A stretch of DNA of 5,706 nucleotides from Chloroflexota bacterium. Lineage in GTDB: Bacteria; Chloroflexota; Anaerolineae; Anaerolineales; UBA4823. Location: NCBI GenBank assembly GCA_030636125.1, contig DAOVXM010000201.1, positions 1 to 5,706 of the forward strand, given 5' to 3'. Position 1 is the stretch's first letter; each line of letters opens with the position of its first letter. Of the stretch, positions 31-5,706 are shown piece after piece. The notes beneath the pieces were generated by a model. That model was not told the origin of the DNA. It did no database searches and saw only the letters and a program-made list of their open reading frames with translations. Both the position numbers and the translations under genes were made by a program.

Positions 31-96
31 CTATTCAGAGTTGTGCTCTCCAACTTCCCAACGAACGAAACCCCGGATGACGATATTTTCACCAAT
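31..96 (-). other. tsf: Conserved EF-Ts C-terminal segment lying beyond the in-frame TAA
   Basis: Reading on in the tsf frame after the TAA gives 21 codons, beginning IGENIVIRGFVRWEVGE, and ends at TAG (31-33). From memory, Thermus thermophilus EF-Ts ends [20 protein letters not shown]. The alignment is therefore continuous, with the TAA in place of the Lys between IA and IGENI. One A-to-T change in an AAA Lys codon would create it. This segment forms the last core beta-strand in short EF-Ts proteins, so its loss should matter. It is either a degraded end of the gene, a readthrough extension, or a normal end hidden by a sequence error. Confidence 0.85.
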
Positions 97-636
97 TTAG
101 GCAATATTATCTAGCAACAACTTCTCAACGGTCAATTCGTCATCTCGAATATAAGGCTGCCGCAGCAAACATACCTCATCTACAAATTTGGCCAGGCGTC
201 CTTCGACGATGCGGACAATGACATTTTCAGGCTTACCCTCTTCCAGGCCGAGCCTGCGAGCTTTCTCGCGCTCTTGCTCTAATACTTCCTCTGGAATATC
301 TTCTTCCCTAATGTACCGCGGCGCGGCTGCAGCTATTTGCAGGGCAAGCTCATGGGCAAAAGTTCGGAAAGTTTCAGAGCGGGCTACAAAGTCGGTCTCG
401 CAGTTGACCTCGACCATCACACCGACGCGCCCATTGCCATGTGAGTATAGTTCTACCATACCCTCAGAGGATTCTCGGTCCGCACGTTTGGCAGCTGTTG
501 CCAAACCTTTTTCACGTAAAATCTCTTGTGCTTTCTTAAAGTCGCCATTTGTCTTTTCCAGGGCTTTGCGAACTTCCATAATCCCTGCCCCGGAGACTGC
601 GCGCAACTCTTTAATTTGGTCTATCGTAACTGTCAT
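97..636 (-). CDS. tsf: Translation elongation factor Ts (EF-Ts), stopped early by an in-frame TAA
   Basis: EF-Ts is the cytoplasmic nucleotide exchange factor that releases GDP from EF-Tu during elongation. The 179-residue frame has the N-terminal UBA-like domain (about residues 1-50, with VSGAGIMEVRKAL), the basic linker AAKRADRESSEGM, and the core-domain signature NCETDFVAR (78-86), whose Asp82-Phe83 match the residues that insert into EF-Tu in E. coli. The Thermus-type short core follows (EGRLAKFVDEVCLLRQP, about 145-161). The start ATG (634-636) lies 2 nt after the rpsB stop and has a well-spaced GAGGAA ribosome binding site, so the two genes are almost certainly co-transcribed and perhaps translationally coupled. 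The frame ends at TAA 97-99, but 21 more codons in the same frame encode the conserved EF-Ts C-terminus. Full length would be about 201 residues, near the usual short EF-Ts length. Gene identity is very secure; the functional C-terminus is uncertain. Confidence 0.95.
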   Translation of the reverse strand: MTVTIDQIKELRAVSGAGIMEVRKALEKTNGDFKKAQEILREKGLATAAKRADRESSEGMVELYSHGNGRVGVMVEVNCETDFVARSETFRTFAHELALQIAAAAPRYIREEDIPEEVLEQEREKARRLGLEEGKPENVIVRIVEGRLAKFVDEVCLLRQPYIRDDELTVEKLLLDNIA

Positions 637-638
637 GT

Positions 639-1757
639 TTATTCCTCGTTCTCTTCCTGGTCCCCGTCTTCTGCTGCCGGCTCGTCTTCGCTCGGCTGTT
701 CATCCTCTGCATCCTCCGTAGCTTCAGCTTCTTCTACGATCTCCTCGATCTCTTCAGCTTCAACTACCTCTACCTGCTCAACAACCTCCTCGACCTCTTC
801 AACTTCCATCTCCTCTACTTGCTCAACAACCTCCTCGATCTCTTCAACTTCCTCCACCTCTACCTGCTCAACAACCTCTACCGCTTCGGCCTGCTCTTCG
901 ACCCCTTCCTCTTCGACTTGCTCAGCACCTTCTTCCTCCTCGGTGGAAGCGGCCGTACTAAAAGCCAGTTTAGCCAGTGTAGCTTCGCCCAACAACTCTT
1001 CGTCGGACAGTTCGGGCTCATCAGCACCTACCATCTCCATAATTTCTGGAGCAGGCTCGACTTCCTCTTCCTTGCGCATGGCTTTCCCTTCCAGCACAGC
1101 TTCAGCAATCTTGCCAACTAAAAGCTTAATGGCGCGGATAGCGTCATCGTTCGAAGGAATGACATAATCTATATTACGCGGGTCGCAGTTGGTATCCACC
1201 ATAGCGACAACAGGTATATCAAGCAAATTTGCCTCGTGAATGGACGTCTCCTCGCGGCGTACATCTACGACAAAGAGCAGGTCTGGCACACCCGCCATGT
1301 GGCGAATACCGCCCAATAACATTTCTAGGCGATCCATCCGGCGAGTGAGCAACAGCACCTCCTTCTTAGGAAGGCGTTCGAAATCGCCCCCGTCGCGCAT
1401 ACGCTCTAGACCCTCTAATTCATTTATGCGCTGGCGAATCGTGCGCCAATTTGTGAGCATACCACCTAACCAGCGCATGGTTACATATGGCATCCCGCAG
1501 CGAGTGGCCTCCAGGTAGATAGTCTCTTGGGCCTGACGTTTGGTGCCAACAAAAAGCACCGTTCCCTCTTCGGCTACGGTGTCACGGACCAAATTGTAGG
1601 CTTCGTCCAATGCCTTGACCGTTTTTTGCAGGTCGATAATATGGATACTGTTACGCTCGGTAAATATATATGGCTTCATGGCTGGGTTCCACTTGTGGGT
1701 ACGATGCCCAAAGTGCACACCACTTTCCAGAAGCGCTTTCATAGAAACGATGGCCAT
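639..1757 (-). CDS. rpsB: Small ribosomal subunit protein S2 with a long acidic C-terminal tail
   Basis: S2 binds late to the 30S subunit near the head-body junction and is needed for S1 recruitment in bacteria that have S1. The 372-residue protein has a complete S2 core at about 1-228: [32 protein letters not shown] (69-80), [13 protein letters not shown] (95-107), the coiled-coil protrusion (about 105-155), [16 protein letters not shown] (155-170), VDTNCDP (187-193) and [12 protein letters not shown]. Residues 229-372 are a Glu/Val-rich tail with three 15-residue repeats that start VVEQVE. The ATG at 1755-1757 is chosen because the family begins MAIVSMK and AAAGGAG sits 8 nt upstream. An in-frame GTG three codons earlier (1764-1766) overlaps that Shine-Dalgarno and is unlikely. 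It is the first gene of an rpsB-tsf operon, the usual bacterial order. Confidence 0.97.
642..647 (-). promoter_or_regulatory. tsf ribosome binding site embedded in the 3' end of rpsB
   Basis: GAGGAA on the minus strand is the last two Glu codons of rpsB, directly before its TAA stop. It lies 5 nt upstream of the tsf ATG (7 nt from the GAGG core). The layout suggests ribosomes finishing S2 re-initiate on tsf, which is an inference from spacing. Confidence 0.8.
723..902 (-). repeat. 45-bp tandem repeat encoding 15-residue acidic units in the S2 tail
   Basis: On the plus strand, CTCTACCTGCTCAACAACCT (or a close variant) begins at 768, 813 and 858, a regular 45-bp period. A more diverged copy lies next to it at 723-767. 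In the protein this gives units starting VVEQVE at residues 295, 310 and 325, and a degenerate unit at 340 starting IVEEAE. The preserved DNA similarity points to recent slippage or unequal recombination rather than only selection for acidic residues. Confidence 0.8.
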
Positions 1758-1970: not shown

Positions 1971-1987
1971 GGACTGTTATTGCGCGG

Positions 1988-1993
1988 TACAAT
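1988..1993 (+). promoter_or_regulatory. Predicted -10 element for birA, implying a leaderless mRNA
   Basis: TACAAT (5 of 6 to TATAAT) ends 7 nt before the birA ATG at 2001, so transcription should start at about 2000-2001, at or next to the A of the start codon. No Shine-Dalgarno is visible upstream of the ATG. No convincing -35 exists; the expected position (about 1964-1970) coincides with the -35 of the divergent rpsB promoter. Confidence 0.45.
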
Positions 1994-2000
1994 TTATGTC

Positions 2001-2810
2001 ATGGACCAACCTACCCTTAACAAGCTTTTAGGTGATTTGTCCTTGGGGTCTATACGCTATCTAAATACCGTTGACTCCACCAACAACCTGGCCGCACACT
2101 GGGCCAAAGATGGTGCGCCAAACCTATCGCTGGTGATAAGCGATGAACAAACGGCTGGCCGCGGTCGCTTGAGCCGTCGCTGGTATACACCGCCAGGAGC
2201 AGCATTGGCATTCAGCCTAATCATCCAGGATACCACTCAAGAGACCGTCATGCCCAACAGCAGCTTATCCCGCCTGACAGCGTTAGGGACACTGGCAGTA
2301 TGCGATGCATTGAAACAATCCTTCCCAACACAGCTTCAAGCACAGATTAAATGGCCCAACGACGTCTTAGTGGCACATCACAAGCTGGCTGGGGTGCTCT
2401 CCGAGGCTTTTTGGCAAGGTGAGCAATTACAGACTGTCATCCTTGGCATCGGTATCAATATTGCACCTGAATCCGTGCCATCTGCGGAGCTGCTGGATTT
2501 TCCGGCAACCTGTGTAGAAGCTGCGGTGAAAGAACAAGTTGACCGCTGGGAGTTGTTACACACTGTGTTGGTCAAGTTGTTATACTGGAGATCCCACCTG
2601 ACCTCCCCAGAGTTCATTCAGGCCTGGGAAAAGAGATTAGCCTATCGAGGAGAGTGGGTGCAGGTGATTTTTGAGGGTGAACCATCTCTTGAGGGTCAAG
2701 TAATCGGGCTAAAATCCGATGGTTCCTTAAAAATGCTTACACGGTCAGGGGATCTGGTTGATCTCCAGGCTGGTGAAATCCACGTTAGGCCGCTTGACAG
2801 GCCAGCCTAA
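2001..2810 (+). CDS. birA: Biotin--[acetyl-CoA-carboxylase] ligase, monofunctional (no DNA-binding domain)
   Basis: This enzyme makes biotinyl-5'-AMP from biotin and ATP, then attaches biotin to the biotinyl-lysine of BCCP in acetyl-CoA carboxylase and related carboxylases. The 269-residue product has DSTN (25-28), the adenylate/biotin loop GRGRLSRRW (53-61), KWPNDVLV (117-124) with the downstream Lys128 in KLAGVLSE (the biotin-contacting Lys183 of E. coli), ILGIGINI (147-154), and an SH3-like C-terminal domain (about 213-265). It lacks the N-terminal winged HTH of E. coli BirA, so it is a class I ligase not expected to repress bio genes itself. The loop has Ser58 where GRGRxGRxW has Gly; the family tolerates change there. 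ATG 2001 is preferred; a TTG at 1980 adds seven residues but lies upstream of the predicted transcription start. Confidence 0.93.
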   Translation: MDQPTLNKLLGDLSLGSIRYLNTVDSTNNLAAHWAKDGAPNLSLVISDEQTAGRGRLSRRWYTPPGAALAFSLIIQDTTQETVMPNSSLSRLTALGTLAVCDALKQSFPTQLQAQIKWPNDVLVAHHKLAGVLSEAFWQGEQLQTVILGIGINIAPESVPSAELLDFPATCVEAAVKEQVDRWELLHTVLVKLLYWRSHLTSPEFIQAWEKRLAYRGEWVQVIFEGEPSLEGQVIGLKSDGSLKMLTRSGDLVDLQAGEIHVRPLDRPA

Positions 2811-2964: not shown

Positions 2965-3171
2965 ATGTTCGATGACCTGCGCGACGATGCCTCGTCTTAT
3001 TACGATGAAGATGATTTCCAGGAGCTCGCTAAGCCACAGGAAAGCCCCAAGAAATTCTTGGGCATGACCCCCCTCCAACGGTTTGTCATCGCATTGCTAT
3101 TATTATTCGCTACCTGTATCCTTAGCGCGTTTTGCTTACTGGTGACAGAGAGAGTAGTACTATTGTTATGA
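2965..3171 (+). CDS. Small single-pass membrane protein of unknown function
   Basis: This 68-residue product is not a family I can name. Residues 1-20 are strongly acidic (nine Asp/Glu, including YYDEDDF). A short linker with Pro and Lys follows (KPQESPKKF, 23-31), then FLGMTPLQRF and one hydrophobic helix at about 39-61 (VIALLLLFATCILSAFCLLV), ending TERVVLLL. The Lys/Arg residues before the helix favour a cytoplasmic N-terminus by the positive-inside rule, and no signal-peptidase site is evident. A good AGGAGA ribosome binding site and absence of overlap with other genes support it as real. It sits between birA (same strand, 154 bp upstream) and the convergent gyrA, and neither neighbour indicates its role. 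It could be a lineage-conserved small membrane protein. Confidence 0.7.
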   Translation: MFDDLRDDASSYYDEDDFQELAKPQESPKKFLGMTPLQRFVIALLLLFATCILSAFCLLVTERVVLLL

Positions 3172-3260: not shown

Positions 3261-5706
3261 AGGTCACACCCACTCGAAGTAAATCGGCGCGGGCAATGCG
3301 TGCCACAGAGGCAACATTATCCCCTTCCTTTAAATTCATCAACAGCACACCGCGTGTCGCGCGACCTGATCGTGAAATGTTTTCCACTTTGGTCCGTATA
3401 ATCACGCCACCAGCCGACATCATGGTCAGGTCGTCGGCTTCTTGCACCACGCGTGCCGCAGCAATCACACCCACCTTATTAAATGCCTTTTTGTCAATTG
3501 TAAGTATACCTCTGGTAGCCCTGCTCTTTGAGGTATATTCGCTCAATAGTGTGCGCTTTCCATAACCCTTGGTTGTCACCACCAATAACTCACCCTCCGG
3601 TTCGACTACTTCCATGCTGGTGACCCGGTCCCCTTTGTGTAATCGAATCCCGATGACGCCTGCTGCAGTGCGTCCCATCGACCTCACCTCTTTCTCCGAG
3701 AAACGCAACGCCTGACCGTTTTTCGTCACCATAATAATTTCATCCTCACCTCGCGTCAGGCGCACCCACCCCAACTCATCGCCTTCACCTAGGCTGATAG
3801 CGATCAGACCAGAAGGACGCACAGATGCAAATGCAGAGAAGACCACACGTTTGACACGCCCGTTGCGAGTGGCCATCATGCAGTACTCAGCAGCTTCGAA
3901 ATCGGGCACGGGCACAACTGCAGTAACTGTCTCACCAGGCCTTAAAGCCAATACGTTAACAATAGGAATACCTTTCCCTGTACGGTCGGCGTCTGGAATC
4001 TGGTACGCCTTCTCGGAATATACTTTGCCCTTATCAGAGAAAAAGAGAATAGTATCCAGCGTACGCGCCGGGACCAGCATTACGACCTCGTCTTCGTCCT
4101 TGGTGGCGTGACCGGTGACCCCCCGGCCACCACGTCTCTGCGACCTGAACGCTTTAGCCATAACCCGCTTGATATACCCGCGCTGAGTGATACTGATCAA
4201 CACGGCCTCATCGGGAACCAGGTCCTCCTCGTCGAAGTCCCCGCTGGCATCAAATGCAATATGAGTCCGGCGTTCATCCCCATACTTTTCAGCGACCTCA
4301 TTTAAGCCATCTTTGATAACTTTCAAAATTTTCTTCGGGTTCGCCAACAAATCTTCCAGATAAGCAATATTTTTGAGAATCTGGTTCTGTTCGTCCTCGA
4401 TTTTCTGCCGTTCCAAGGCTGCCAGGCGGCGCAGTTGCAAATCGAGAATGGCTTGGGCTTGACGATCGCTCAAGTTAAATCGCGACATAAGGCGTTCCTT
4501 GGCAACATCGGCATCCGGAGACTTACGGATTGTCTGGATCACATCGTCCAGGTTTGCCAGCGCGATAAGCAGTCCTTCTAAGATATGCGCGCGAGCAAGC
4601 GCTTTATTTAAGTCGAATTGAGAACGGCGGATGATCACATCACGCCGGTGCTCGATATACACACGTAACGCTCGCTTCAGCGAGAGTAAGCGCGGTTCTC
4701 CTTCCACCAGGGCCAGCATCTGGGCTCCAAAGGTGGTTTGAAGCGGGGTGAACTTATAAAGCTGGTTGAGCACCTTTTTGGGTTGCGCGCTGCGTTTGAG
4801 TTCGATGATAATGCTCATCCCACGCCGGTCTGATTCATCGCGTAGATCGGAGATTTCGCCCAGCTTGCCGATGCGAGCCAGATGGGCAATCCGCTCGATC
4901 AAGCTGGTTTTATTGAGTTGATAAGGGATTTCTGTGATAACAATACGGTAGCGGCCCCCATTTAACTCTTCAATATGTGCTAGCCCGCGCAGTACAATGC
5001 GACCGCGCCCGGTGCTATAAGCCTGGCGGATACCTTCCGAACCCACAATTACACCACCTGTGGGGAAATCAGGCCCCGGAAGATATTCCAGCAAATCTTC
5101 CACAGTGATTTCATCTACCTGATGGTAGTTATCGATCATATAGGTCAGGGCCGAGATCAACTCACCCAGATTGTGAGGAGGGACATTGGTCGCCATACCT
5201 ACCGCAATCCCAGAGGAACCATTTAGCAACAAGTTGGGCAGGCGGGCTGGCAAGACGATTGGTTCTTGCAAAGAGTCGTCAAAGTTAACCGAAAAGTCTA
5301 CCGTATCCTTGCCAATATCCGCCAGAATATCTTCGGCCATGGACGCCAAACGCGCCTCGGTATAGCGCATTGCTGCGGGCGCATCGCCATCAATGGAACC
5401 GAAGTTGCCCTGCCCATCGACCAAGGTATAGCGCATAGAGAAGTCTTGCGCCAGACGGGCCATAGCATCGTAAACCGACTGATCCCCATGCGGGTGGTAT
5501 TTTCCCAACACTTCGCCAACGATACGCGCAGATTTCTTATGCTGCGTGTTCGAGCGAATGCCCATATCATGCATAGCATACAAAATACGGCGGTGTACTG
5601 GCTTGAGTCCGTCACGCGCGTCGGGCAAGGCGCGCGCAACGATCACGCTCATCGCGTAGTCCAGATAGGCAGATCGCATTTGATCGTCGATGTCTACTTG
5701 TTGAAC
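3259..5706 (-). CDS. gyrA: DNA gyrase subunit A, 5' end outside the window
   Basis: GyrA is the DNA breakage-reunion subunit of the A2B2 gyrase that introduces negative supercoils using ATP hydrolysed by GyrB. Residue numbers count from the Met at 5677-5679. The winged-helix/tower region has [47 protein letters not shown] and the catalytic Arg105-Tyr106 in AAMRYTEAR. The coiled-coil region and C-gate follow to about 480. The C-terminal beta-pinwheel (about 487-800) carries the GyrA box QRRGGRG (514-520), which separates GyrA from ParC. That Met is probably not the start: the frame stays open to 5706 (VQQVDIDDQ), matching the sequence that precedes SYLDYAMS in GyrA, so the gene is partial here. 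Position 67 is Gln where E. coli has Ser83. There is no acidic C-terminal tail. Confidence 0.96.

Follow-up and report, generated by a model that had tools for sequence, protein, structure and literature searches.

An in-frame stop codon in an Anaerolineales-type tsf gene probably reflects a sequence or assembly error at a contig edge

The tsf gene encoding elongation factor Ts (EF-Ts) in this stretch of DNA is interrupted by an in-frame TAA at positions 97-99, which is very probably a sequence or assembly error at the edge of the contig in an otherwise normal gene; most likely, the stop does not exist in the organism. An error at the contig edge is favoured because two odd codons lie near the contig end while near-identical relatives are intact. 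The window, meaning the whole stretch analysed, is an entire contig of 5706 bases, since its own EF-Ts protein is listed on a single contig of just that length, and the TAA is less than 100 bases from its end. The features of the tsf region are the following:

97..636, minus strand: open reading frame of tsf (EF-Ts), made up of codons 1-179 and closed by the in-frame TAA
97..99, minus strand: in-frame TAA at codon 180, a sense residue in 199/199 relatives compared
34..96, minus strand: codons 181-201, homologous in the same frame to the C-terminal strand of EF-Ts (from translation and alignment)
70..72, minus strand: codon 189, Gly where 199/199 relatives have Arg, a second anomaly near the contig end (from alignment)
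31..33, minus strand: TAG closing the 201-codon frame (from translation)

The tsf frame and its interruption

Judged by its sequence, the open reading frame is an EF-Ts gene, with matches above the curated cut-offs of both profile models: Pfam EF_TS (PF00889; E 3.9e-36, 125 bits against a cut-off of 27) and NCBIfam tsf (TIGR00116; 180.3 bits against a cut-off of 104.05). The original prediction had described a tsf frame broken by the TAA and continued in the same frame by the EF-Ts C-terminus. Translation bears out both parts: there are exactly 179 codons before the stop, and the tsf frame is kept for the 21 codons after it (IGENIVIRGFVRWEVGEHNSE) up to the TAG at 31-33. The uninterrupted frame, ending at codon 179, thus lacks the complete C-terminal strand. 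An AlphaFold model of the intact relative P0003, of low confidence (mean pLDDT 68.3, pTM 0.43), contains a helix at residues 170-181 and a strand at 186-193, and it matches Thermus EF-Ts (1aip_C) with E 3.2e-14 and a TM-score of only 0.44-0.46. On this model the strand at 186-193 is predicted to fall after the stop. The window shares with the short Thermus-type EF-Ts (tsf; 1aip, 1tfe) the family match, the rpsB-tsf gene order and a frame of about 200 residues, but differs from it, as assembled, by the stop at 179 and by a Gly at the invariant Arg 189.

Codons 180 and 189 in the nearest relatives

Homologous proteins were searched with the 179-residue form as query, so that a truncated relative was not disfavoured; 8000 candidates were scored and the best 120 taken, the window's own protein among them. 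The window's read-through frame, with an X at the stop, was aligned with the 119 other proteins and with 80 genome loci (the best 80 of 546), which are its nearest relatives and form two sets that are not independent of each other. At codon 180 the proteins (best 120 of 8000) have Ser in 90 cases, Ala in 24, Thr in 3 and Leu and Arg in one each, and in the loci (best 80 of 546) Ala is the commonest, with 52 cases, followed by Ser with 26 and Lys with 2; neither a stop nor a gap is found there in these 119 proteins or 80 loci. The comparison with tsf in related genomes that had been proposed with the original prediction therefore gives a sense residue in 199 of 199 relatives, and none of the 199 compared ends naturally at this codon. 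The interrupted position had also been called conserved, which holds in the sense that every relative compared has a sense codon; the residue itself is not strictly conserved, being mostly Ser or Ala. Lys, given for Thermus in the original prediction and confirmed there by the alignment to 1aip_C, occurs at this position in 2 of the 80 loci and in none of the 119 proteins.

The closest sequences are in fact intact. P0002 and P0003 are identical to the window's tsf over 179/179 residues, and each is 201 aa long with Ser at position 180 (P0003 is counted in 8 contigs); P0004-P0007, at 98-99% identity, are also 201 aa long. Among the closest named proteins, P0003, P0130 and P0242 come from Anaerolineales MAGs; by this protein similarity the contig probably belongs to a member of the Anaerolineales. 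The length of tsf in the 80 loci is 200-208 residues, one locus being cut by its end before the stop. A single one of the 119 proteins is shorter than 190 aa (P0027, 182 aa), and it has its C-terminus and lacks its N-terminus; P0071 (191 aa) breaks off after residue 191. Genome searches, in which genomes without a match are uninformative on internal stops, revealed no internal stop in the tsf matches listed for 32 of the 38 genomes of one family (that of the genome behind locus L001), nor in the matches listed for 111 of 121 genomes of the order, searched with a tsf paralogue as query (two of them, G079 and G143, matched only in part). Viral contigs yielded a single relative, at 36% identity.

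A second discrepancy is found at codon 189 (70-72), where the window has Gly while all 119 proteins, all 80 loci and Thermus have Arg. Over the 201 codons and the 199 relatives, this is the sole window residue that departs from a consensus above 90%. It lies nine codons past the stop and had not been mentioned in the original prediction. Codons 180 and 189 are the only differences between the window's tsf and P0003, both within the last 22 codons and less than 100 bases from the contig end. Because the post-stop tail matches P0003 except at codon 189, the other 20 codons being identical, it does not come from a distant species.

These comparisons bear directly on the possibility that the TAA is read through, in a programmed or leaky manner, to produce a minor 201-residue form. 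Such a mechanism would be in line with a post-stop frame that is EF-Ts-like and open up to the second stop, but it is highly improbable: a functional product should retain the Arg and a programmed stop should recur in near-identical relatives, and neither holds. The Arg present in 199/199 relatives is lost from the post-stop part, and the stop is found in 0/199 relatives, being absent even from P0002 and P0003, which match the window at all 179 residues. A stimulatory RNA structure after the stop has no clear signal in the folding energy, which is unremarkable there (z -1.54, with 16 of 200 shuffles as stable).

Neighbouring genes, divergence along the contig and tsf copy number

The other genes of the window are the following:

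639..1757, minus strand: rpsB (ribosomal protein S2), its product having a long and acidic tail at the C-terminus, directly upstream of tsf on the same strand
1980-2810, plus strand: open reading frame named birA in the original prediction (from the list of open reading frames)
2965-3171, plus strand: 68-codon open reading frame between birA and gyrA (from the same list)
running off the far contig end (5706), minus strand: gyrA, 815 residues present

The S2 tail (700-960, minus strand) is acidic and rich in Glu and Val, partly from a 45-base tandem repeat of 3.1 copies at 741-878, and it varies among close relatives (the whole proteins measure 341-392 aa across the ten best hits, the window's included). 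The 68-codon frame is acidic at its start and hydrophobic over a C-terminal stretch, with no Pfam match at E 0.001. The gyrA gene is cut at 5706 and would need only five more residues to reach the start seen in its nine closest full-length relatives.

An in-frame TAA inside an essential gene could in principle signal a changed genetic code in which the organism reads TAA as sense, an explanation that is hardly credible here. As originally predicted, TAA terminates both rpsB (639-641) and the frame named birA (2808-2810); it also ends tsf in 50 of the 80 relatives (one of the 80 being cut before its stop). Moreover, no in-frame stop interrupts rpsB or gyrA, and both reach the lengths seen in their relatives, except that gyrA is truncated by the contig end.

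How different the window is from known strains can be read from its other proteins. GyrA, over the 815 residues present, shows 0 differences to P0121, 1 each to P0122 and P0123, 2 each to P0124 and P0130 (the latter lacking the first 17 residues) and 6-20 to P0125-P0129, bearing in mind that P0121-P0129 have no shown source and may not be independent of the window's sample. P0124 and P0003 may share one contig, as the longest contig is 17010 for both. The opposite contig end is clean: the first 54 GyrA residues show no difference to 9 of the 10 closest relatives, those that cover all 54. Between the window's S2 and P0242 there are 6 differences in 372 positions, of which four lie in the acidic tail; against P0243 there are 3 in the first 272 positions. 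Residues 62 and 111 of the window's S2 differ from both of these nearest listed relatives. The S2 differences indicate that the window's strain is close, but not identical, to strains in the database. A genome of the same species was found neither in the 38 family genomes (best protein identity 77%) nor, with a DNA query, in 400 genomes of the order of the L001 source, where 369 matched and none of the matches listed exceeded 77% identity.

Differences at the protein level are concentrated at the tsf end, with 2 in the last 22 tsf codons against 2 in 994 positions (tsf core to P0003 plus GyrA to P0124; Fisher p 0.0026), or p 0.010 once S2 against P0242 (6/372) is added; both tests were chosen post hoc and mix relatives, and are indicative only. 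The S2 comparison weakens this clustering a little and leaves our assessment unchanged. None of the listed repeats of at least 18 bases or tandem repeats, which might mark a chimeric edge, involves bases 1-100.

A real and recent nonsense mutation in one strain, accompanied by a second, missense change, would shorten EF-Ts to 179 residues and remove its last strand, perhaps in a variant that is non-growing or compensated. In favour of this, the part of the frame preceding the stop is intact and nearly the same as in relatives, and S2 shows a strain slightly different from the listed ones. Nevertheless, we consider this unlikely: the stop is found in none of the 199 relatives, the tsf matches of the 32/38 and 111/121 genomes (two of the 111 partial) contain no internal stop, and both odd codons lie less than 100 bases from the contig end.

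Compensation is conceivable in so far as some related genomes have a second tsf paralogue. The premise that tsf is single-copy is usually right in this group, but not always: a second full-length paralogue, 51-52% identical to P0003, is apparently present in 2 of the 38 family genomes (G009 and G031), and a third (G014) has a C-terminal tsf fragment. In the 121 order genomes, which do not include G009 and G031, 110 of the 111 that match have one tsf match and G014 has two. Both full-length paralogues are directly downstream of a PadR-type regulator gene and away from rpsB, an unusual arrangement for what would be a regulated spare EF-Ts:

L113, 712-1323 and 1332-1877, minus strand: EF-Ts paralogue and PadR-type gene, paired
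L114, 1337-1942 and 765-1304, plus strand: EF-Ts paralogue and PadR-type gene, paired
L115, 1399-1755, plus strand: C-terminal EF-Ts fragment of the third genome

That the window comes from a real strain with EF-Ts truncated at 179, tolerated owing to a PadR-linked paralogue like that of the two related genomes, is very unlikely.

A probable error at the contig edge and what it implies

In metagenome assemblies, uncorrected errors at contig edges can give spurious premature stops. The window resembles such cases in several respects: (i), the stop is on one contig among those listed; (ii), it lies less than 100 bases from the end; (iii), a discordant codon is nearby; and (iv), near-identical copies are intact. 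Within the best 120 of 8000 proteins and the 80 loci, the anomaly is indeed confined to this contig. We hypothesize that the source is a bacterium of the Anaerolineales type, in which rpsB and tsf form an ordinary pair and EF-Ts is of the Thermus type with 201 residues, and that the odd codons seen in the last 100 bases or so of the contig, at least two in number (180 and 189), are due to low coverage, read errors or strain mixing that escaped correction at the assembly edge. Two substitutions could also arise in a genuinely decaying gene. Of the options listed in the original prediction, a sequence or assembly error, which came first, is the best supported, while a real truncation and readthrough are weakened because near-identical relatives are intact, an invariant Arg is affected and the site is less than 100 bases from the contig end. 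Nothing bearing directly on contig-edge stops or on this question was found in the literature consulted, including excerpts of PMC4545859 and PMC3240657.

Were the stop real, the predicted last strand (186-193 in the low-confidence model), part of the region that aligns to Thermus EF-Ts, would be lost, meaning that a core translation factor could dispense with its last strand or be replaced by a paralogue. Under the far more probable reading of an error at the contig edge, the window calls for caution: a premature stop found in an essential gene close to a contig end should first be compared with near-identical relatives and only then be given a biological interpretation.
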